Positions 2,634-17,581 of a stretch of 28,588 nucleotides of DNA are shown piece by piece. The notes below the pieces were generated by a model that was not told where the DNA came from, made no database searches, and saw nothing but the letters and a program-made list of their open reading frames with translations. The translations under genes were made by a program, and so were the position numbers. Source of the DNA: a virus; the IMG/VR virus record IMGVR_UViG_3300032676_000609, positions 1 to 28,588 of that record, one strand, 5' to 3'. Each line of letters starts with the position of its first letter. The stretch's first letter is position 1.

Positions 2634-2818
2634 CAATCTTCAATCTGGTGGTATGTATCACCAATTCCGTGGGCGCGTTCGATGGCGCGGGCAAACTCAA
2701 CTTCGTCATTGCTGGGATCGCCCCACCCGAATACTGCGTTAAATATCTCGCTGATTTGTCGCTCTGTCAACGGGGTACGTTGCGCATCTAATCGGTCTTG
2801 TGTGGTGAAGGTGGTCAT
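2633..2818 (-). CDS. Small hypothetical protein with ISEIFNA...FARAIE module
   Basis: 61 residues. The segment LTERQISEIFNAVFGWGD...VEFARAIERAHGI follows the same plan as LTDDEIDHVWFNYGWGS...MKFARAIL in the gene at 8622 and LTDEEI...VGFARAIL in the gene at 8828. They probably share one small helical module, although this copy lacks the KAQEK tail. Its start lies in the junction repeat GTGCC..AAGAGAAATGA (4-base overlap with the upstream gene). Function unknown. Confidence 0.6.
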   Translation of the reverse strand: MTTFTTQDRLDAQRTPLTERQISEIFNAVFGWGDPSNDEVEFARAIERAHGIGDTYHQIED

Positions 2819-3024
2819 TTCTCTTGTGCCTTTTCTAATAATTCGTCAAGCATCATATTTCCTAAGTTTTCGTAACTTTTTATTTTGTTTTTCAACGCCT
2901 CTATTTCAGCTTGTTGCTGGCGTAGCATGGTGGCTACTAAACCCCGATAATGCTCTTGTGATGTAAGCATTATGTCAACAACGCTATCATCTTCAATCCA
3001 ATCAGCTAGTTCATTTGCGTTCAT
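2815..3024 (-). CDS. Small coiled-coil protein, paralogue of the 8828-9187 gene, ends KAQEK
   Basis: 69 residues. The N-terminus MNANELAD is identical to that of the protein at 8828-9187, as is the segment QQAEIEALK, and the DNA of these parts is nearly identical. The middle (25-65) is a predicted helical coiled coil. It ends with the KAQEK stop junction shared by four genes. It overlaps the upstream gene by ATGA. Function unknown; the mosaic identity suggests recombination between the two loci. Confidence 0.65.
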   Translation of the reverse strand: MNANELADWIEDDSVVDIMLTSQEHYRGLVATMLRQQQAEIEALKNKIKSYENLGNMMLDELLEKAQEK

Positions 3025-3308
3025 AGGTATTTCTTAGCGCCTGTCATAATAAAGTAATTGGCATCGTAGGATCGCAGATCCCCGTCATTCCAAATAATGA
3101 ATACTCTTTCGCTTTCCATAACCCAACATCCTAAGAATGATTCCCCACTCTTTAAATAAGAATAGGCAACCCAAGATTTTTCTTTAGACTTACATGGGAC
3201 ATTAGTCAAAGCAATGGATCCGCCACCCCTATTTGGCATCTCCGCTATTACTCCTGCGCTTGCGTTTAGGCACCACAGCAGCGATACCGCCATCAGTAAT
3301 CTTTTCAT
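3021..3308 (-). CDS. Small exported (periplasmic) hypothetical protein
   Basis: 95 residues with a clear Sec signal peptide: MKR, a hydrophobic core LLMAVSLLWCL and an ASA cleavage site at 16-18. The mature part is about 77 residues and has two cysteines (C39, C61) that could form a disulfide in the periplasm. The start has an ideal SD (GAGGAG, 7 bases before ATG). Such small secreted proteins are frequent in phages; a host-envelope role is possible but not shown. It overlaps the upstream frame by 80 bases, unusual for this operon. Confidence 0.7.
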   Translation of the reverse strand: MKRLLMAVSLLWCLNASAGVIAEMPNRGGGSIALTNVPCKSKEKSWVAYSYLKSGESFLGCWVMESERVFIIWNDGDLRSYDANYFIMTGAKKYL

Positions 3309-3402
3309 TTTCTAGCTCCTCTATAAGCTCATCTGCAATATTTACGGCAATCCTAGGCGTAGCTCCACCCACAATGGCAAAGCAAGCCGCTAAAAATCTC
3401 AT
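3229..3402 (-). CDS. Hypothetical 57-residue protein, hydrophobic N-terminus and basic tail
   Basis: Start placed at the ATG that forms a 4-base ATGA overlap with the upstream stop, rather than at a GTG 21 bases earlier. Residues 1-25 are hydrophobic (MRFLAACFAIVGGA), the middle is an acidic helix (ADELIEELENEK) and the tail is basic (PKRKRRS). The SD of the next gene lies inside this one. Not recognised. The 80-base overlap with a convincing downstream gene lowers confidence. Confidence 0.45.
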   Translation of the reverse strand: MRFLAACFAIVGGATPRIAVNIADELIEELENEKITDGGIAAVVPKRKRRSNSGDAK

Positions 3403-3824
3403 GTATTCTTTGTCGTTTTCCACTCTTTATACTCCGCATAGATATCTTTAAGCGCCTTTTGAGCGGCTAGGTTAGTCTTGATTTCAGATCTAGAGCTAAC
3501 GACTAAATAATTTTGCATCCATTCAACACATTCTGCTTCAGTCTTTTGGAATAGGCTTCCTTCTTCGTGCAAGAATTCCCAAAAGTCTTTATCTCGGCAA
3601 AGCATTCCTGCTAGCTTAACCATTTGAGCGCCCGCAAACTCTTCACGGTTTAATGGCTCTTCATTATCGTTAAGCCTAACCATAACAACCATATACCTGG
3701 CACCCACAAAATCCCGCATAATCTCATCAGGAAGATCATCTGGATGGATAGCTAACGTCATAGCATACCCATCCTTAGTCTGCTTAAGAGCTACCTTTTT
3801 AGCTTCAAACTGACTAGTCTCCAT
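3399..3824 (-). CDS. Hypothetical protein of the recombination module
   Basis: 141 residues, soluble, no known motif recognised. The N-terminal 60 residues alternate as beta strands (VALKQTKDGYAMTLAIHPDDLP, ARYMVVMVRLND) and the rest is helical. It follows the SSB-like gene with a one-base overlap (its ATG shares a base with the upstream TAA). The position directly after ERF and the SSB-like protein suggests an accessory role in DNA recombination or replication, by context only. Confidence 0.7.
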   Translation of the reverse strand: METSQFEAKKVALKQTKDGYAMTLAIHPDDLPDEIMRDFVGARYMVVMVRLNDNEEPLNREEFAGAQMVKLAGMLCRDKDFWEFLHEEGSLFQKTEAECVEWMQNYLVVSSRSEIKTNLAAQKALKDIYAEYKEWKTTKNT

Positions 3825-4102: not shown

Positions 4103-4792
4103 TTACTCCTTCGCTAGTGCTTTTTTGGTTTCTGAAAATTTACTCATTAATTCTGAATAAGCGGGTTCATCTTTGGCTTTAAAGATGTCAAAGACTGACC
4201 GATTATTTTTGAATATGTTTGCTACATCGTCTGATGTTGATGCAGTCTCTAATAATACATTAGCGCCTGCTATAAGCCCTTTAATCCACTCAGGAGAGCC
4301 TTCTTCACCCTCTGGTATCAAATGCCATTCCTTGCTTGTTTTAATGGCTTTCTCAACGGCTTTCTCTGGAGCAGGGATATTAGACACTTTAGGTGCTTGT
4401 ATAATAACTGGTGTTTCTTTTCCAGTCAATGGCTCTAATGCGTCATGCTCCACAATCTCAAATGCATTGACCCATAAATAGCGACGCAGATAGGTTTGCA
4501 CTGCGCCCAAGTTTTGAACATCGTGGCAGCCTTTTAATGCAGCGCTAGACATAGGAGATGTAAATGTAGCAAAGCTACCATCATCTGTATCATAAATGGT
4601 TAGATATGCATCTTCTTTATTAAACGCTACCACTCCGCACATGCCAACCTTTTGGCAAATATTTTGGATCTCTGGCAAAAAGTCACCCAACTCAAAGTAA
4701 TAGTAGTTGGCAAACTTATTGTGTCCAGACTTCTTTAGTTTTGTATTCTGAAGCATTATTCGTGCTTCTTGTAACTTTTTATAAATACTCAT
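4103..4792 (-). CDS. erf: ERF-family single-strand annealing recombinase
   Basis: 229-residue protein with the ERF signature: an N-terminal helix (KLQEARIMLQNTKLKKSG), NYYYFELGDFLPEI, and the conserved block GAVQTYLRRYLW (96-107) followed by NAFEIVEHDA. ERF proteins anneal complementary single strands for phage recombination and genome circularisation. The C-terminal third is variable, as in the family. It sits between DUF3310 and an SSB-like gene, with the PD-(D/E)XK exonuclease four genes upstream: a complete exonuclease / annealing protein module. Confidence 0.88.
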   Translation of the reverse strand: MSIYKKLQEARIMLQNTKLKKSGHNKFANYYYFELGDFLPEIQNICQKVGMCGVVAFNKEDAYLTIYDTDDGSFATFTSPMSSAALKGCHDVQNLGAVQTYLRRYLWVNAFEIVEHDALEPLTGKETPVIIQAPKVSNIPAPEKAVEKAIKTSKEWHLIPEGEEGSPEWIKGLIAGANVLLETASTSDDVANIFKNNRSVFDIFKAKDEPAYSELMSKFSETKKALAKE

Positions 4793-5252: not shown

Positions 5253-5459
5253 TTACAGTTTTGAGATTCTAGTAAAGTATGCGCCAAGTCGTGCTTGAAT
5301 TAACTTAACATCATCCCAGTAAGCGCTTGTCTTTGTTTCCAACAATGGCTTAACTTTTAGCTTGTGCATAATAAACTCTTTGCTTAATGTTACGCCAAGC
5401 TCTTCGCTTAATTGACCTGTTACGATTGGTGTGTTTTTAATTTCAACTTGCTTTCTCAT
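5253..5459 (-). CDS. Hypothetical 68-residue basic protein
   Basis: Starts MRKQVEIKNTPIVTGQLSEELG and contains a helical segment LSKEFIMHKLKVKPLLE, which could be a small DNA-binding domain, although no helix-turn-helix is clear. It overlaps the end of the exonuclease gene by 17 bases. A role with the exonuclease/ERF set is suggested only by position. Confidence 0.6.
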   Translation of the reverse strand: MRKQVEIKNTPIVTGQLSEELGVTLSKEFIMHKLKVKPLLETKTSAYWDDVKLIQARLGAYFTRISKL

Positions 5460-6333
5460 TTTGTTTCTCCTCTAAGTAAGATTTGTATTGGTCACAAAAT
5501 TCAGACACTGGACAAAAGTTTGCACAACGGGTGCGCTCACCTTCTCTAACTTCTAGAGCATATCCTTTGCCTGCTTTTTCTAACGCTTCTTCGGCTTCCT
5601 CTAAATCTGCATGGACAGACTTTGCCCGTGCAGCTCCCTCCTTCTTAACCGCATAAGTTGTAGGCTTTTCCCACATCTCATCCGGTGTACATAATGGTAG
5701 CACTTCTCCAGTCTCCATGGCGAATAACCCTTCTGACTGAATATGTATTCTATTACGAATAAATTCTTCTCGTTGCTCCATAGGCCATAGAGTAATCGGA
5801 ATTGTTTCCACTTGGCATTGGGGATAACCCTCACGAGTCTTGGCATCCCTACGATTCCAATCACGGATGATAGCGATGATGGCTAGCTTAACTACTGGCG
5901 TCTTTTTAACCTTCTCGACTAACCAAGCATAGATATTGAGCTGTTGCTCCCACTCAATCTTCTCGTTCATGACAGACCATACGCCTACATTCTTGTAGTC
6001 GTTAATCTCTATGCCATCAGGATGTACAATTTGCAGGTCAATAGCGCCAGAAATATGCCAACCATCAAGTACTTCATGTAGTCTTTGCTCAACAATGTGG
6101 TTAGCATCTTTCCCATGCTCCAATACTCCGTGAATTGCGGTTCCAATAATAGACCAAATCATATCGGACACATCGGTCTCAATCTGATCGTCATACTTTT
6201 TCTTAAGCTGGACTATGCGTGGACTATTGAGAAGCTCAGTAGCCGATACGTGTGCCTTCCCCTTTGTGTAAGCAGGACGCTTAGCCACATTGAGAAAAGT
6301 TTGCGGAAGATTATACTTGTTCGTTATCTTCAT
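5443..6333 (-). CDS. PD-(D/E)XK nuclease (Cas4/AddB-type exonuclease) with four-cysteine cluster
   Basis: 296 residues. Motifs of the RecB/Cas4-like nuclease fold: GTAIHGVLEHG (64-74), the metal-binding Asp D99 in SGAIDL, the catalytic pair D112-Y-K114, and QLNIYAWL (131-138). Four cysteines (C215, C270, C274, C280, the last three in CANFCPVSEFC) match the placement of an iron-sulfur or zinc cluster in Cas4-like phage exonucleases. It should resect duplex ends to make single strands for the ERF protein encoded downstream. The 5' end overlaps a 56-residue gene. Confidence 0.85.
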   Translation of the reverse strand: MKITNKYNLPQTFLNVAKRPAYTKGKAHVSATELLNSPRIVQLKKKYDDQIETDVSDMIWSIIGTAIHGVLEHGKDANHIVEQRLHEVLDGWHISGAIDLQIVHPDGIEINDYKNVGVWSVMNEKIEWEQQLNIYAWLVEKVKKTPVVKLAIIAIIRDWNRRDAKTREGYPQCQVETIPITLWPMEQREEFIRNRIHIQSEGLFAMETGEVLPLCTPDEMWEKPTTYAVKKEGAARAKSVHADLEEAEEALEKAGKGYALEVREGERTRCANFCPVSEFCDQYKSYLEEKQNEKAS

Positions 6334-6481
6334 TCTTTATCCATGAAGCAGTAATCACCGCAATCTGAGCCATTTCTAGCAATAAAGCCTCTGCTTCATC
6401 CTTTTTGTTTTTAAGCAGCAACTCATAAACTGATCTTAAAGACTTATCTAATCTTAAAAATGCTTCACTGTAATCTACCAT
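6311..6481 (-). CDS. Hypothetical 56-residue helical protein
   Basis: Frame beginning MVDYSEAFLRLDKSLRS and ending KNEDNEQV. It has an excellent SD (GAGGAG, 6 bases before ATG) and short overlaps with both neighbours (17 bases with the gene before it, 23 with the exonuclease), which fits this operon. It is predicted to be all helix. Function unknown; the short length and strong SD suggest a co-translated partner of the exonuclease, but this is inference. Confidence 0.65.
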   Translation of the reverse strand: MVDYSEAFLRLDKSLRSVYELLLKNKKDEAEALLLEMAQIAVITASWIKNEDNEQV

Positions 6482-6833
6482 TGCTTTCTCCTCTGTATCC
6501 TACTCTGTTTCCGTTGTTGTCGTAGTAGTTTTGAACACCACTAGGACTGATTGTTTCATAGCCAATACGACTTCCGCTATTATCGTAAACCCCACTGTAC
6601 GGATTTACAGTACTGTTGTGATAGTCCATTGGGCTGTTATTAAAATTTTGCGGGCTGTTATTATAGTTCAACTCGCTATTTTTAAAGTTCATAGGACTGT
6701 TATCCCATAAGGTTTGGCTACATGCTAATTTAGCATGTGTACCAATATATAGCCCAACTATACAGCCGATAATCCCAATCAAAGATCCAGACCAATAGCC
6801 CTGCCAATACGCTCTTTGCCAATCATTTTTCAT
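6465..6833 (-). CDS. Membrane-anchored Asn/Ser/Tyr heptad-repeat protein
   Basis: 122 residues. One transmembrane helix near 16-32 (GSLIGIIGCIVGLYIG, Gly-rich) is followed by five exact 7-residue repeats at 45-79: NSPMNFK, NSELNYN, NSPQNFN, NSPMDYH, NSTVNPY (pattern N-S-x-x-N/D-F/Y-x). Then come two copies of Y-D-N-x-G-x-R-I/V-G-Y (83-92 and 104-113). The repeats suggest a regular beta structure exposed outside the inner membrane. Proteins with NSPxN repeats occur in other phages and bacteria without a firm function. Confidence 0.75.
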   Translation of the reverse strand: MKNDWQRAYWQGYWSGSLIGIIGCIVGLYIGTHAKLACSQTLWDNSPMNFKNSELNYNNSPQNFNNSPMDYHNSTVNPYSGVYDNSGSRIGYETISPSGVQNYYDNNGNRVGYRGESNGRLQ

Positions 6834-6976
6834 TTTGTCGCCATCATATAAAGACCCACATTAGCAGCAGAATAAGCACAGTAGGTAATGCATAAAGCAA
6901 CATTCCCTTTAAACCCTTGCTCCAGTCCGATGTACGCATAAATTAACCCTGTAACAATAATTAACCAAGAACTCAT
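6830..6976 (-). CDS. Hypothetical 48-residue two-helix membrane protein
   Basis: Frame MSSWLIIVTGLIYAYIG, then EQGFKGN, then VALCITYCAYSAANVGLYMM. The two hydrophobic stretches around a short polar turn look like a helical hairpin. The SD is strong (AAGGAG, 7 bases before ATG). It has 4-base ATGA overlaps with both the glycosyltransferase before it and the repeat protein after it, strong evidence for a real gene. Function unknown; two small membrane proteins in a row may act together. Confidence 0.7.
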   Translation of the reverse strand: MSSWLIIVTGLIYAYIGLEQGFKGNVALCITYCAYSAANVGLYMMATK

Positions 6977-7725
6977 TCTGCACTCCTTAGTGCACCGCTA
7001 AAGATGTAAGAGCCACAATGAGATAATCGTGCCCAGGGAGCAGCCCACACCTTGTATCCATTTTCTCTAGCCAGCTTACAAAAATGATAGTCTTCGGAAA
7101 GCAAGCGGTTATTGTTTTCTACATCAATACTAGTATCAAAGAACTGCTTAATAACTTTTGGCTTACGCTCTTCATCAATGATAGTAAACATATCACTGTT
7201 GTATTCCGGAACCTTATCAGCCAACCCTTCAAGCACTTCACGCTTAATTAACATAAATCCTGTGCCACCGTTAGCAATCTCACATGGCTCACTTAAAGTC
7301 ATATAGACTTCAGCAGCTCCATCAACGGCATTCAAAACAAATACGCCCGTATAGTCGTATAGCTCTTGCGGAGTCTTACCTTCTTTTACCGCCTCAGATA
7401 CCTGTGTCCAGTTGATCTCTTTCTTTGGATAAAGCCCGCAGATAATGTCTTTATCAGCATCAATCATCGGAATGATGTCCTCTGCTCTAAAGCCAATGTC
7501 CGCATCAATAAACATTAAATGGGTGCAGTCGCTTTCTAAGAAGTCGTAAGCCATTGCATCCCTAGCACGAGTAATCAAAGACTCATTCATCATATAAGAG
7601 TACTGCATCTGGACTCCAGCTTGTCCAAAGACTCCTACGCAACGCATAATGCCTACTGCGTATTGTCCATGACAAAGACCGCCATACATCGGGGTAGCTA
7701 CAAATAAATACGGTTTAGTTTCCAT
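6973..7725 (-). CDS. GT-A fold glycosyltransferase
   Basis: 250 residues from the ATG at 7725, chosen because GAGAGGAAAAAG precedes it; a Met nine codons earlier lacks such a site. It begins with a strand TKPYLFVATPMYGG, contains LITRARDAMAYDFLESDCTHL and the nucleotide-sugar metal motif D74-A-D76 in MFIDADIGF, then CGLYPKK and a C-terminal LSEDYHFCKLARENGYKVW acceptor region. This is the form of many phage glycosyltransferases. Targets could be host glycan, virion protein or modified DNA base. It overlaps the second glycosyltransferase by 11 bases. Confidence 0.82.
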   Translation of the reverse strand: METKPYLFVATPMYGGLCHGQYAVGIMRCVGVFGQAGVQMQYSYMMNESLITRARDAMAYDFLESDCTHLMFIDADIGFRAEDIIPMIDADKDIICGLYPKKEINWTQVSEAVKEGKTPQELYDYTGVFVLNAVDGAAEVYMTLSEPCEIANGGTGFMLIKREVLEGLADKVPEYNSDMFTIIDEERKPKVIKQFFDTSIDVENNNRLLSEDYHFCKLARENGYKVWAAPWARLSHCGSYIFSGALRSAE

Positions 7726-8419
7726 TCTTTTTCCTCTCGTTTCCTTTTGCATACCAATCTTTTTGATTAGGTTTTGTAAGTCTGTAATTCACTGTGTAAA
7801 GCCCTGTACCACCAAAGTTTGGAAATTGGTTACTGGCTGCTTTAAACAATTCTTTATCCCCGTTATACGGATCAAGGGTGTGGAATAGTCTTTGAGATAT
7901 ACGGTTAATCACGCAGTTCTTGAATAAATAACAGTTCATATCCACAAATGTATAGCCACCCTCCCAGCTAGGAGCATTTCCTAGGCTGTCCGATTCGTCG
8001 TTAAATAAGAAATTGCCCTCTTTATCTACAATCCGTCTAAGACTATAACACCAGTCCCAATTATTCTTTTCTAAAGCCTCTACCATGGAAGATATATGGT
8101 TTGGTTCATACCAGTTATCTTCGTCCAAAAACATTACATAATCTGCATTGGTTAGGAATGGAATGGCGGCATTGATCCTGTAACCGTTATAAAACCCAGT
8201 ATAGGGTAAACCATTAAACCCTTGAATAGGCGTTCCAGTGTTCTCAGGAAGCACAATGAAGCTCTGCTTATATGGATGTGCCTGAATCATGCTAGCAACT
8301 CGTGTAGCGTAAGCAAGACCATCAACTACTATCCAATGCTCGGCATCATTGCCTACACTATGCATAGCTTGAGGCAACCAATCAGTCCCAATAGTCGGAG
8401 TGATTACTGCAATCCTCAT
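7715..8419 (-). CDS. Family 2-like glycosyltransferase
   Basis: 234 residues from the ATG at 8419, which forms ATGA with the upstream stop; an earlier in-frame Met at 8449 lies inside the upstream gene. Features: IAVITPTIG and IVVDG at the N-terminus, a DxD-type motif D99-E-D101 in YVMFLDEDNWYEP, and a C-terminal Trp/Tyr-rich part. This is the GT2 plan of transferring sugar from a nucleotide donor. Its start lies in the KAQEK junction repeat. With the neighbouring glycosyltransferase and methyltransferase it probably builds or decorates one glycan. Confidence 0.82.
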   Translation of the reverse strand: MRIAVITPTIGTDWLPQAMHSVGNDAEHWIVVDGLAYATRVASMIQAHPYKQSFIVLPENTGTPIQGFNGLPYTGFYNGYRINAAIPFLTNADYVMFLDEDNWYEPNHISSMVEALEKNNWDWCYSLRRIVDKEGNFLFNDESDSLGNAPSWEGGYTFVDMNCYLFKNCVINRISQRLFHTLDPYNGDKELFKAASNQFPNFGGTGLYTVNYRLTKPNQKDWYAKGNERKKNGN

Positions 8420-8625
8420 TTCTCTTGTGCCTTTCTTATCTTTTCCCAAACAGAATCTTCGATTCGTTCTTCTAATTCCTGTAAAAATTCACGAATAGAA
8501 TTAGGGCTTAATAAAATTACATTAGCAAATATTGCATATTGTTGGTCAAGGTCTAATGCGTTTTTTACATCAAGTGGAACTACCAATCCGTGTTTTCTAA
8601 AAATATCATCAACAAAATAGCTCAT
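8416..8625 (-). CDS. Small hypothetical protein ending KAQEK
   Basis: 69 residues: MSYFVDDIFRKHGLVVP, a hydrophobic middle (QQYAIFANVILLSP) and a helical, acidic tail REFLQELEERIEDSVWEKIRKAQEK. The last codons and the start of the next gene belong to the repeated junction. No family recognised. The body is unrelated to the other KAQEK proteins, so the junction is shared, not the protein. Confidence 0.65.
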   Translation of the reverse strand: MSYFVDDIFRKHGLVVPLDVKNALDLDQQYAIFANVILLSPNSIREFLQELEERIEDSVWEKIRKAQEK

Positions 8626-8831
8626 TTCTCTTGTGCCTTTCTTAGTATTGCTCTAGCAAACTTCATCAAATCATCTTTTTCAACACTTCCCCAGCCGTAA
8701 TTAAACCAAACATGGTCTATTTCATCATCTGTTAGTGTCTTTAGTTGTGGCGAGCAAGTATGAATAGAATCGCCTGTAACTCTTTGTCCACAATCTAAAC
8801 ACGCAGTCCACGCTACTGGTTCATTGTTCAT
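8622..8831 (-). CDS. Small zinc-ribbon protein with LTDDEI...FARAIL module, ends KAQEK
   Basis: 69 residues. An N-terminal zinc-ribbon-like half has C12/C15 (CLDCG) and C26 with nearby H24; a helical half reads LTDDEIDHVWFNYGWGS, then LMKFARAILRKAQEK. The same helical module closes the next gene, and 39 bases at the 3' junction are identical between the two. Function unknown; the shared module may be an interaction domain. Confidence 0.68.
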   Translation of the reverse strand: MNNEPVAWTACLDCGQRVTGDSIHTCSPQLKTLTDDEIDHVWFNYGWGSVEKDDLMKFARAILRKAQEK

Positions 8832-9187
8832 TTCTCTTGTGCCTTTCTTAGTATTGCTCTAGCAAACCCAACATCAAGCGTTGTCCAATCTCTTTTCCAA
8901 AAATCTTCGGTAATCTGCCATATTTCCTCATCTGTTAGTGTCTTTGCTGTCTGTGTAATAACAGGGTCATAAGCAATGGCACCGCATCTTGCACATACTT
9001 TTCCGTCGCCTTTCAACGCCTCTATTTCAGCTTGTTGCTCTACTACTTTTGCATAAAGTTTGTCGTGATTAACAAGTAAAGAATAGTATTCAGCTTGTTG
9101 ATGGCGTAGCATGGTGGCTGCTTGTTCTCTTGTGCCGCCTTCCCAATGACCTTGCTCTAATTTATCAGCTAATTCATTTGCGTTCAT
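8828..9187 (-). CDS. Mosaic small protein: coiled coil, zinc ribbon and LTDEEI...FARAIL module
   Basis: 119 residues built of pieces found elsewhere in the operon. MNANELAD and the QQAEIEALK coiled coil are shared with 2815-3024; a CARCG zinc-ribbon half follows; then LTDEEI...VGFARAILRKAQEK is shared with 8622-8831. The QQAE segment occurs twice inside this protein. It overlaps the methyltransferase gene by ATGA. Function unknown; it reads as a fusion or recombination product of operon neighbours. Confidence 0.7.
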   Translation of the reverse strand: MNANELADKLEQGHWEGGTREQAATMLRHQQAEYYSLLVNHDKLYAKVVEQQAEIEALKGDGKVCARCGAIAYDPVITQTAKTLTDEEIWQITEDFWKRDWTTLDVGFARAILRKAQEK

Positions 9188-16029: not shown

Positions 16030-16208
16030 GCTTCATCTCCTTCAACATCATTCCAGCATAAATCCTCATCTAGCATGGAATCTTCAATAAAATAATGTTT
16101 TCCCGTCTTTATATGGAATAGGTTCCCTTCGGAAAAAGCATCCCGTAGATTCTGATACTCACCTAAAAAAGCGTTGTTTTCGGTGTTAAATAGCTTCCAT
16201 CTAAGCAT
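16026..16208 (-). CDS. Hypothetical 60-residue protein
   Basis: Start chosen at 16208: GAGGAGGAAG lies 4-10 bases upstream, and the ATG overlaps the preceding AAT GCT TAG by 8 bases; a longer reading frame starting at 16277 lies wholly inside the upstream gene. The sequence MLRWKLFNTENNAFLGEYQN suggests a small beta-rich fold, ending acidic (DEDLCWNDVEGDEA). Not recognised. Confidence 0.62.
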   Translation of the reverse strand: MLRWKLFNTENNAFLGEYQNLRDAFSEGNLFHIKTGKHYFIEDSMLDEDLCWNDVEGDEA

Positions 16209-16776
16209 TTTCTTCCTCCTCTTCGTTGTCATCTTCCCACTCTGCCATGCCTTCAGAAATACAATGTTCTTCATCAATATTGCGGGGAATATTGTTTTTA
16301 ACCCATTCGGAATTTCCTAGTATTTCATAACAATAATCTTGTCCATCTACAAACTCCCCACAAAAACCGCACCCGCCTTCGTGATAAGTTGCCGAGACTT
16401 CAAAACCCATATCTACAAGCGTTGCGTATGCCTCAGTAGGAGGAGACCAAGCGGAGCAAAAATATACTACCAATGCTCCATCTTTTCTAAGTTTTTCTAC
16501 CCTTGCACCATCTGATCCAGCACCAATGTCCCACTTTGTTCCCCAATTTTGAACTCGCCAATCCCACCATGCTTGCTTAGGATCAACATACTCGGATTCA
16601 GGTTCACCGGTAGAATAATTCATAGGGAATGTATGTTTTACTTTTACCTTTGTATAGTCCGGTTCAGGCACTAGGGTAGATAAAAATTTATCCTCATTCC
16701 AAGCCTGTAATGCTTTTTCCATCATAGCGTGGTCTTTATGGGTTAAAACTAAGTTGTTATTGCACCAATTAGGCAT
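16201..16776 (-). CDS. DUF1281 / YubB ferredoxin-like-fold protein
   Basis: 191 residues starting MPNWCNNNL, the hallmark start of the plasmid and phage DUF1281/YubB family, with the conserved RVQNWGTKWD (74-83) and AWSPPTEAY. The ferredoxin-like part is a fold name, not an iron-sulfur site, although four cysteines near GGCGFCGEF could bind metal. The very acidic tail (EWEDDNEEEEENA) ends in the NA-stop junction common in this operon. Function of the family unknown. Confidence 0.78.
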   Translation of the reverse strand: MPNWCNNNLVLTHKDHAMMEKALQAWNEDKFLSTLVPEPDYTKVKVKHTFPMNYSTGEPESEYVDPKQAWWDWRVQNWGTKWDIGAGSDGARVEKLRKDGALVVYFCSAWSPPTEAYATLVDMGFEVSATYHEGGCGFCGEFVDGQDYCYEILGNSEWVKNNIPRNIDEEHCISEGMAEWEDDNEEEEENA

Positions 16777-17080
16777 TTTCGTTCTCCTCTTTGAAATAAA
16801 TTTGTTTAGTATTGGGTGTCCAGCTTTTATCAGCCCAAACTTTTCCGTTGTAAGACATATAACCTACTTCTTTACCATTAAAATAAACTGCTGGATTCAT
16901 CCAATTTCCACCACCAATATCATTTTCGTATTGCCAATTCCTTACTCTTTTAAGTAATAAATCAAAATTGTGGGCGGTAATTTTGACAATATCTACTCCA
17001 TAAGGCGGTTGATTAGGGTCTTGTCCGTAATCCGGATTACCACAAACTTGCGGGGTAAGTTCAAATAATTTCTTAGGCAT
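16769..17080 (-). CDS. Hypothetical 103-residue protein
   Basis: Start at 17080 with an ideal SD GAGGAGG; an earlier Met (17116) lacks one and lies within the preceding gene. MPKKLFELTPQVCGNP, a Pro/Tyr-rich part and an aromatic C-terminal half (YENDIGGGNWMNPAVYF, VGYMSYNGKVW). Ends KEENENA at the NA-stop junction. Not recognised. Confidence 0.65.
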   Translation of the reverse strand: MPKKLFELTPQVCGNPDYGQDPNQPPYGVDIVKITAHNFDLLLKRVRNWQYENDIGGGNWMNPAVYFNGKEVGYMSYNGKVWADKSWTPNTKQIYFKEENENA

Positions 17081-17249
17081 TTTGAACCTCCTCAATATTT
17101 GTAATTTCAGAATCAATCAATGAAATATTAAAATTTTCATAAAACGATTCTTTTAGCCTTAAAACATAATCTTCTGGTGAATCAGCCTCATGCCAATTAC
17201 CTTCAAATCTAAGTATTACTGTGCTGGTGTATTCTTTGTAATCAGACAT
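17073..17249 (-). CDS. Hypothetical 58-residue protein
   Basis: MSDYKEYTSTVILRFEGNWH, then a helix PEDYVLRLKESFYENF and a tail ending NIEEVQNA. The strand-helix-strand plan resembles the DpnD-like neighbours. 8-base overlaps with both neighbours and SD GAGGAAG support a real gene. Function unknown. Confidence 0.65.
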   Translation of the reverse strand: MSDYKEYTSTVILRFEGNWHEADSPEDYVLRLKESFYENFNISLIDSEITNIEEVQNA

Positions 17250-17403
17250 TTTCTTCCTCCAATTTAACTATCTCAGCACAATTTGGCTCAGATAAATCTC
17301 CACGATCAAATAAATCCCATGCTAAATCTTCAGCGTCTTGATATCCTTCGGCTTCGACTGTATAAATAGCATGAGTAGAAATTACTACTTCAAATTTAGG
17401 CAT
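17242..17403 (-). CDS. Small DpnD/PcfM-like protein
   Basis: 53 residues from the ATG at 17403, preceded by GAGGAGG; a longer frame from 17454 lies within the previous gene. MPKFEVVISTHAIYTVEAEG, then YQDAEDLAWDLFDRGDL: two strands and a helix, the same plan as 15430-15618. Acidic end KLEEENV overlaps the next start by 8 bases. Confidence 0.62.
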   Translation of the reverse strand: MPKFEVVISTHAIYTVEAEGYQDAEDLAWDLFDRGDLSEPNCAEIVKLEEENV

Positions 17404-17581
17404 TTTGAACCTCCTCTTCTCCGTTAAACTCAGAATAAACTTCAATATCAGCAAAATTCCATGACAAATCGTTTTCGTCCATCATAGTTTCTAGCTGTTC
17501 ATCTGCTTCTTCCCTACTATTTGCTTCTATTCCAACGATCAAAGTTTCTTTTTGTATAACAAAATATTCATAACGCTTCAT
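17396..17581 (-). CDS. Small DpnD/PcfM-like acidic protein
   Basis: 61 residues: MKRYEYFVIQKETLIVGIEA, then SREEADEQLETMMDENDL, the strand-strand-helix plan shared with the genes at 15430 and 17242. Ends EEEVQNA in the junction repeat. SD GAGGAGAG. First gene after the control segment at 17582-17726. Confidence 0.65.
   Translation of the reverse strand: MKRYEYFVIQKETLIVGIEANSREEADEQLETMMDENDLSWNFADIEVYSEFNGEEEVQNA

Follow-up and report, generated by a model that had tools for sequence, protein, structure and literature searches.

A linker of 23 nt, TAAGAAAGGCACAAGAGAAATGA, stands between consecutive genes in the stretch of viral DNA analysed here, which is 28,588 nt long and is referred to as the window. 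The same DNA is found between unrelated genes, it is used in two reading frames and its copies share one strand orientation. It also bounds differences in gene content between phages, and cassettes flanked by it are shared in isolation between loci. The finding is real and there is good support for the cassette reading; the recombination step is one that we infer, as is the origin of the linker in a gene family termed F0. Taken whole, with these two steps included, the explanation that a 23-nt homology linker delimits single small genes as interchangeable phage cassettes is likely.

The linker in the window

A preliminary description of this DNA reported four genes ending in KAQEK, with stops at 8416, 8622, 8828 and 2815, and a site search confirmed the repeat. 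The 23-nt unit is present on the minus strand as exact copies at 8416, 8622 and 8828 and with two mismatches at 2815; its chance expectation in the window is a mean of 0.00 (100 shuffles). Four exact minus-strand matches to GGCACAAGAGAAATGA are found, at 2815, 8416, 8622 and 8828, and two further sites, 4789 and 9184, have three mismatches. At three or fewer mismatches 0.35 sites are expected, and six were reached in none of 100 shuffles. Each exact copy comprises the last codons of a gene (KAQEK), the stop and an overlapping ATG. The linker has TAA in one frame and TGA in another, and it is the TGA that overlaps the ATG of the next gene. The putative SD, AAGAGA, lies very close to this ATG.

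Three exact 23-mers are found in tandem with genes of the minus strand. The copy at 8828–8850 joins an F0-family open reading frame (ORF, 8828–9187), which has a MNANELAD N-terminus and a LTDEEI..FARAILRKAQEK C-terminus that ends in the linker and shows no significant Pfam or PHROGs family, to a second F0-family ORF (8622–8831). The latter is a single-ORF cassette that extends from linker to linker, as is the next ORF, 8416–8625 (MSYFVDDIFRKHG..KIRKAQEK), which is unrelated to F0 and begins at the copy at 8622–8644. The copy at 8416–8438 connects this ORF with a glycosyltransferase family 2 gene whose start is in the linker (7715–8419; PF00535, 28.4 bits against a cut-off of 23.3). The fourth copy, at 2815–2837, has an exact 18-nt core with 2 of the 23 positions mismatched. 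It lies, also on the minus strand, between a MNANELAD-type ORF that ends in it (2815–3024) and a FARAI-like ORF with another tail (FARAIERAHGIGDTYHQIED) that starts in it (2633–2818). The linker array is flanked by a methyltransferase gene (PF13578, 9184–9738) and by two glycosyltransferase-like genes (6973–8419).

The lengths of identity first given hold as well. The 22- and 19-nt matches of the copies at 8416 and 2815 are correct to within one base, and the identity between the copies at 8622 and 8828 is 40 nt (8622–8661 and 8828–8867), counting the stop base. This longer identity represents gene-family homology, because both genes are paralogues (LTDEEI..FARAILRKAQEK). The homology reappears at the internal F0 anchors on the minus strand, KTLTDDEI at 8718–8742 and KTLTDEEI at 8921–8945, and only about the last 23 nt are common to unrelated genes. 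Tandem duplication of the last 40 bases alone, named at the outset as an outcome that would speak against a cassette system, is ruled out: the two genes are paralogues with a second conserved block, and the element is found behind unrelated genes also. KTLTDE is coded by a single spelling in 132 of 165 cases. In F0 genes, 12–49 variable residues extend from the KTLTDE anchor to FARAIL. Modular exchange may take place inside F0 genes as well.

Elsewhere in the window, a small protein encoded at 6465–6833 displays repeated N-S-P/N-Y/F motifs (NNSPMNF..NNSPQNF..NNSPMDY), for which 21-nt near repeats code, and related ORFs occupy the same place in several relatives. A second recurrent junction, GAGGAGG..AAATGCCTAA, is present on the minus strand at 16201–16221, 16769–16789, 17073–17093 and 17396–17416, where genes ending in EENA, ENENA or VQNA overlap the ATG of the next gene (MPK..). 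The AAATGCCTAA junction is absent from the 24 recurrent start 19-mers of the loci collected.

Occurrence among viral contigs and neighbouring genes

The exact 18-nt core was found in at least 120 IMG/VR stretches, and in at least 120 each when followed by T or by C. A total of about 500–700 contigs in IMG/VR is an extrapolation that assumes an equal scan order across listings and is based on 21 contigs of the first listing that recur in the second (at least 120 rows, 80 with contigs named). The twelve other spellings, AAGGCB CAR GAR AAATGA, gave 96 stretches when pooled in a complete IMG/VR scan. One spelling accounts for 194 of 204 tail codings with the ATGA overlap, in a sample (the first 120 loci and the window) that was seeded with that spelling. 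In bacterial and archaeal genomes (257 Gb) the core is present in 12 stretches only, where about 7.5 are expected by our own arithmetic; five MAG contigs (11 copies) are linker-like and seven are chance-like (L135 being unclear). Some viral matches are also chance-like: L440 and L369/L397 start long ORFs that, in our own reading, resemble tail tape measures.

Because an exact sequence match was used to collect the samples, locus counts are biased. The 463 pooled loci were reduced to 421 non-redundant ones, of which 298 have the linker, with 517 exact copies. A less biased sample than these linker-fetched loci is provided by 79 relatives fetched via the nuclease of the window, among which 12 loci have the linker, with 27 exact copies, and all 27 are on the strand of the genes. 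Long linker-bearing records (50 records, 28–83 kb) carry up to nine copies each and have them on one strand only in 50 of 50 cases. In loci with several copies, the strand is consistent for 396 copies and deviates for one; the only such locus with a mixture of strands is L469, where one linker opposes two others. The distance of 4458 ATGA junctions to the core, in a sample chosen for the linker and partly seeded with one-mismatch variants, is bimodal: 436, 121, 46 and 28 junctions are found at zero to three mismatches, against 0, 0, 4.8 and 11.6 for shuffled decoys at the same junctions, and beyond that the decoys exceed.

Assembly chimaeras at a short repeat are thought unlikely, with 69 of 468 distinct junctions recurring identically in two or more loci, although in some of these cases the loci are duplicate retrievals of one contig. 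One linker array was found in contigs of four sample numbers (L111, L338, L357 and L375). Two KAQEK linkers are present in MW202753.1 (Manatee Spring), a circular record deposited as a complete genome. From the named records, and from IMG sample numbers that we take to be fresh-water sources, the phages appear to come mostly from fresh water. A relative of the large terminase of the window is present in 18 of 50 records (26 to 78% identity) and none was detected in the other 32; the linker therefore crosses phage lineages or module combinations.

It had been proposed that finding many unrelated genes bounded by the junction would support a cassette system, and this is what the IMG/VR search yielded: the 517 copies are associated with 82 upstream and 166 downstream protein families. 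Upstream, F0 represents 292 of 423 proteins, and the other 131 form 81 families; downstream there are 500 proteins. Neighbour pairs are distinct in 213 of 407 cases, and 133 linker-to-linker single-ORF cassettes are present. Looser clustering of a larger, redundant set gave 38 upstream and 134 downstream clusters. Nine of 19 linker-starting proteins scored above the Pfam cut-off, and the domains found in linker-starting proteins include YqaJ, DNA polymerase A, amino acid:DNA transferase, Hjc, FkbM methyltransferase and HNH.

Two sister linkers are also found between unrelated genes, each in at least 120 IMG/VR stretches (L479–L592 and others for KASEK, L593–L712 for KEKNT). The KASEK linker, AAAGCGAGTGAGAAATGA, has 152 sites in 110 loci with 38 upstream and 69 downstream clusters, and the KEKNT linker, AAGGAGAAGAACACATGA, has 149 sites in 117 loci with 28 upstream and 82 downstream clusters. 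KAQEK and KASEK occur together in 14 loci and KEKNT with neither; the mean GC of the loci is 0.41 for KAQEK, 0.40 for KASEK and 0.49 for KEKNT. All three linkers look like F0-type gene ends. One KEKNT linker each is found in OR003939.1 and OR003940.1, the Dishui Lake phages DSL-LC04 and DSL-LC05. Among all start codons of the loci, no further strong class of linker was detected.

Probable cassette exchange and alternative explanations

In the relatives of the window (17 of 79 laid out), the gene order around the nuclease and ERF genes is kept, and linker-bounded genes with varied contents fill two slots. One slot is before genes like 6465–6976 and the other is between genes like 3021–3824 and 2633. 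In L139, L150, L151 and L153 no linker-bounded genes were found within the parts compared. Filled and empty sites that differ by one or two linker-to-linker segments are seen in L023/L114 (310 bp), L049/L068 (116 bp) and L411/L003 (179 bp); another method gave a filled/empty difference of 164 bp for L023/L059. The preliminary description had held that the same genes in the same order among related phages would argue against cassettes. This is not what was observed, as linker-bounded gene content differs among the relatives.

Isolated sharing means here that a cassette recurs in another locus at 85% identity or more, bounded left and right by exact linkers in both loci, and that the two 150-bp flanks are unrelated; 540 ordinary ATGA-to-ATGA genes of the same contigs served as controls. 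In ordered comparisons, linker cassettes are isolated in 36 of 70 and ordinary genes in 51 of 287 (comparisons without flank sequence numbered 18 and 14), with means per gene of 0.45 and 0.11. At 95% identity or more the figures are 10 of 42, representing five pairs of loci, and 0 of 140. When the exact-linker requirement is dropped, isolation is seen in 107 of 143 comparisons, and most of the boundaries are still linkers that differ at a few positions. Inspection of seven pairs showed that the two contigs align over 100 bp or more nowhere but at the cassette and its linkers. For the sister linkers, 52 KASEK segments yielded four that are shared together with both flanks and none isolated, and 20 KEKNT segments yielded no matches.

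A cassette protein was also searched for regardless of the linker and was found in 22 loci, of which 21 were examined. Allowing one mismatch, a linker borders the cassette in 18 of 20 on its left side and in 20 of 21 on its right, and there are 11 different right-hand neighbours. At L734:39-230, the body of this cassette (MNGNDLTINRD..) is found, in a single instance, with quite different ends (tail ..ENENE), as if another joint were used.

Of 703 alignment ends, 109 lie no more than 20 nt from a linker, where 1.3% would do so at random; the ends amount to 0.43 per linker as against 0.14 per other ATGA junction. Edges of length-changing differences number 74 per 340 linkers and 152 per 1497 other ATGA junctions. 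Exchanged segments are delimited at the linker, yet 538 of 608 length-changing differences have no linker edge, and both edges are at linkers in four. The ordinary ATGA junctions of these phages are also mosaic, and the probability that the other arm is shared is 0.53 for them, compared with 0.22 for linkers in general and 0.31 for those that follow non-F0 genes. Because the whole region is mosaic and most differences lack a linker edge, the linker represents one exchange route, enriched and not exclusive. The proposal that the junction is a homology handle by which genes are swapped while translational coupling is kept finds support in the cassette-bounded differences and the isolated near-identical cassettes. 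It needs amendment as to coupling, as the stop-start overlap is not the sole usage.

The joint looks like a standard gene-swap connector, because it is common to unrelated viruses and near-identical genes are found between joints. A broader proposal, that different freshwater phage lineages maintain the linker as a community-wide connector with which to trade ready-to-translate single accessory genes, is put forward tentatively and is somewhat less probable than not. Such a connector would make for a gene market like that of integrons, but one that needs no integrase and relies on short-homology recombination; KASEK and KEKNT, the sister linkers, may define exchange groups of their own.

A different history might be that the F0 family duplicates and moves by illegitimate recombination, that selection keeps the boundaries and that other genes gained their tails by deletion fusions, with no handle involved. 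The predominance of F0 upstream of the linker, which may simply be inherited or duplicated, would fit such a history, as would the mosaicism of ordinary ATGA junctions. So would the gradual upstream fading of identity in F0 copies and the fuzzy fusion points of the other genes. In favour of the linker, conservation around non-F0 genes is sharp, extending from about −5 through the ATGA; TAAGA precedes the core in 57 of 131 copies behind such genes (359 of 517 overall). Against the F0 history, a separate fusion would be needed for each of the 81 non-F0 families, the differences between filled and empty sites begin and end exactly at linkers, and five unordered pairs of non-F0 cassettes that are 98–100% identical, with exact linkers at both ends, are isolated, against 0 of 140 ordered control comparisons at that identity. 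A history of this kind is considered unlikely, though it is the rival that best survives.

Under the cassette reading, a cassette would start with the ATG of the preceding linker and end with the following linker, either in the KAQEK frame, where TGA overlaps the next ATG, or at the TAA of the linker itself. Recombination between any two linkers would therefore form a translatable joint, whatever the genes. The linker may have arisen as the 3′ end of the multi-copy, modular F0 family (LTDEEI..FARAILRKAQEK) and have been captured later by other genes. Exchange is probably by short-homology recombination between linkers through single-strand annealing; the enzymatic step that we infer would employ a phage annealing protein, e.g. 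ERF, with an exonuclease, or another short-homology route. Candidates are encoded on the minus strand of the window: an ERF-family single-strand annealing protein (4103–4792; PF04404, 40.8 bits against a cut-off of 25) as the putative exchange agent and a PD-(D/E)XK nuclease (5443–6333; PF12705, 33.4 bits against a cut-off of 22) as its putative partner exonuclease.

Among the 50 long records, an annealase of a known family is found in 14 (ERF in 11, RecT in two and AAA_24 above the cut-off in one). Family models detected none in the other 36, and Rad52 in 0 of 50. With the ERF protein of the window as query, matches were obtained in 8 of 50, including G002 and G042, which the family model missed; a YqaJ nuclease is present in 6 of 50. 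The minimal pairing segment is given as 23–27 bp for Red-beta and 31–34 bp for RecA in a section of PMC3945230. The 23 nt of the linker correspond to the lower end of the Red-beta range and are below that of RecA. Annealing-type recombination is favoured because of the ERF and nuclease genes in the window, the lack of a tyrosine recombinase and of a fold, and the length of 23 nt.

A site-specific, integron-like system, in which a recombinase recognises the linker and inserts or excises genes, is very improbable, although such a recombinase might be host-encoded or of a new type. One strict orientation, single-gene cassettes and a short, sharply bounded site are as such a system would have them. 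Yet a tyrosine recombinase or integrase (PF00589) was found in 0 of 50 long records, which are possibly fragments, with the control positive in 14 of 14 genomes, and a serine recombinase in 1 of 50. Fusion points vary, decayed linkers persist and no hairpin is predicted for the linker as single-stranded DNA (three linkers, each analysed as a stretch of 26–28 nt). A folded element is rejected, as no structure was predicted in these stretches.

The KAQEK frame of the 517 copies is read by an ORF of at least 20 amino acids in 421, is truncated by a contig end in 41 and is unread in 55, so that the element does not always come with its peptide. For 40 of the 55 unread copies, the gene upstream uses a different frame and ends exactly at the −5 stop of the linker (TAA). 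These 40 copies represent 26 upstream families, a few of which are short ORFs that are possibly spurious. As these upstream genes end at its own TAA, the linker works as DNA with stops in two frames. With a stop in each of two frames, the 23-nt element is used in two ways, of which coupling through stop-start overlap is one. Selection on the protein for a functional C-terminal tag, KAQEK, e.g. for turnover or partner binding, would be consistent with the tail frame being read in 421 of 476 untruncated copies and with the sister tails KASEK and KEKNT; it is contradicted by the two-frame use, the linker being equally intact in the 40 copies without the peptide, and by the dominance of a single codon spelling, and has scarcely any likelihood.

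Equally implausible is convergent selection for a translation element, i.e. superior stop-start coupling or a ribosome-binding site: the downstream frame is open for at least 20 amino acids in 497 of 498 complete cases and KEKNT holds AAGGAG at normal spacing, but convergence fails to explain why unrelated genes share 18–23 identical nt, and the linker is absent from most ATGA junctions of these phages (436 exact among 4458, in a sample chosen for the linker).

Comparison with known systems

Short conserved boundary sequences of lambdoid phages were reportedly described by Susskind and Botstein in 1978 and by Clark et al. in 2001 (HK620). Like these, the linker is short, is conserved at gene boundaries and is a proposed exchange point, with different genes on each side depending on the phage. 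It differs in being a single 23-nt sequence that recurs both inside single phages and across many of them, and that also supplies stops in two frames and the start codon of the following gene. Integron cassettes are single genes, each with a standard 3′ site, that are shared as units between genomes. The linker resembles this arrangement in that single genes have a standard 3′ site, but neither a tyrosine integrase (50 records) nor a folded attC-like site (stretches of 26–28 nt analysed) was found.

Several repeated or short sequences with related roles are on record. In T4-type phages, PeSLs are described as short repeats through which genes are shuffled in one part of the phage genome (Arbiol 2010; Comeau 2014; as cited in part of PMC4503421). 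As described there, PeSLs consist of a promoter and a stem-loop, whereas the linker is inside the overlap of two genes; no stem-loop was seen, with no structure predicted in three linkers. De Paepe 2014, in the portion of PMC3945230 consulted, attributes mosaics to Rad52-like phage recombinases of the Erf/Red-beta type that act on relaxed, short homologies. The homology in that account is whatever the genomes share, in contrast to the dedicated-looking, recurrent short sequence found here. A search of the open-licence literature found no paper that describes the linker.

Extracts from PMC3029335 and PMC3233612 state two models of mosaicism: recombination at boundary sequences, and illegitimate joining filtered by selection. 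Boundary sequences are proposed there as targets of homologous recombination for module exchange at gene boundaries (PMC3233612), and in the same extracts they are said not to be evident at most mosaic boundaries (PMC3029335, PMC3233612). The boundary model becomes directly testable with the linker, because hundreds of different genes are joined by copies of a single, unchanged sequence. The linker also lets exchanges be counted and dated by cassette identity, and it constitutes a practical marker for accessory genes in environmental phages.

A close parallel is gene 68 of mycobacteriophage Island3. According to an excerpt of PMC3029335, this gene has no homologues, its last 18 residues (about 50 bp) match the end of the preceding gene, and it is explained by recombination at a boundary sequence. 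As with the linker, the end of one gene matches that of another; but the Island3 case, as reported in that excerpt, is one event in one phage pair, whereas the linker involves many gene families and 517 non-redundant copies. The linker is a new, large-scale form of the old boundary-sequence model of phage mosaicism.
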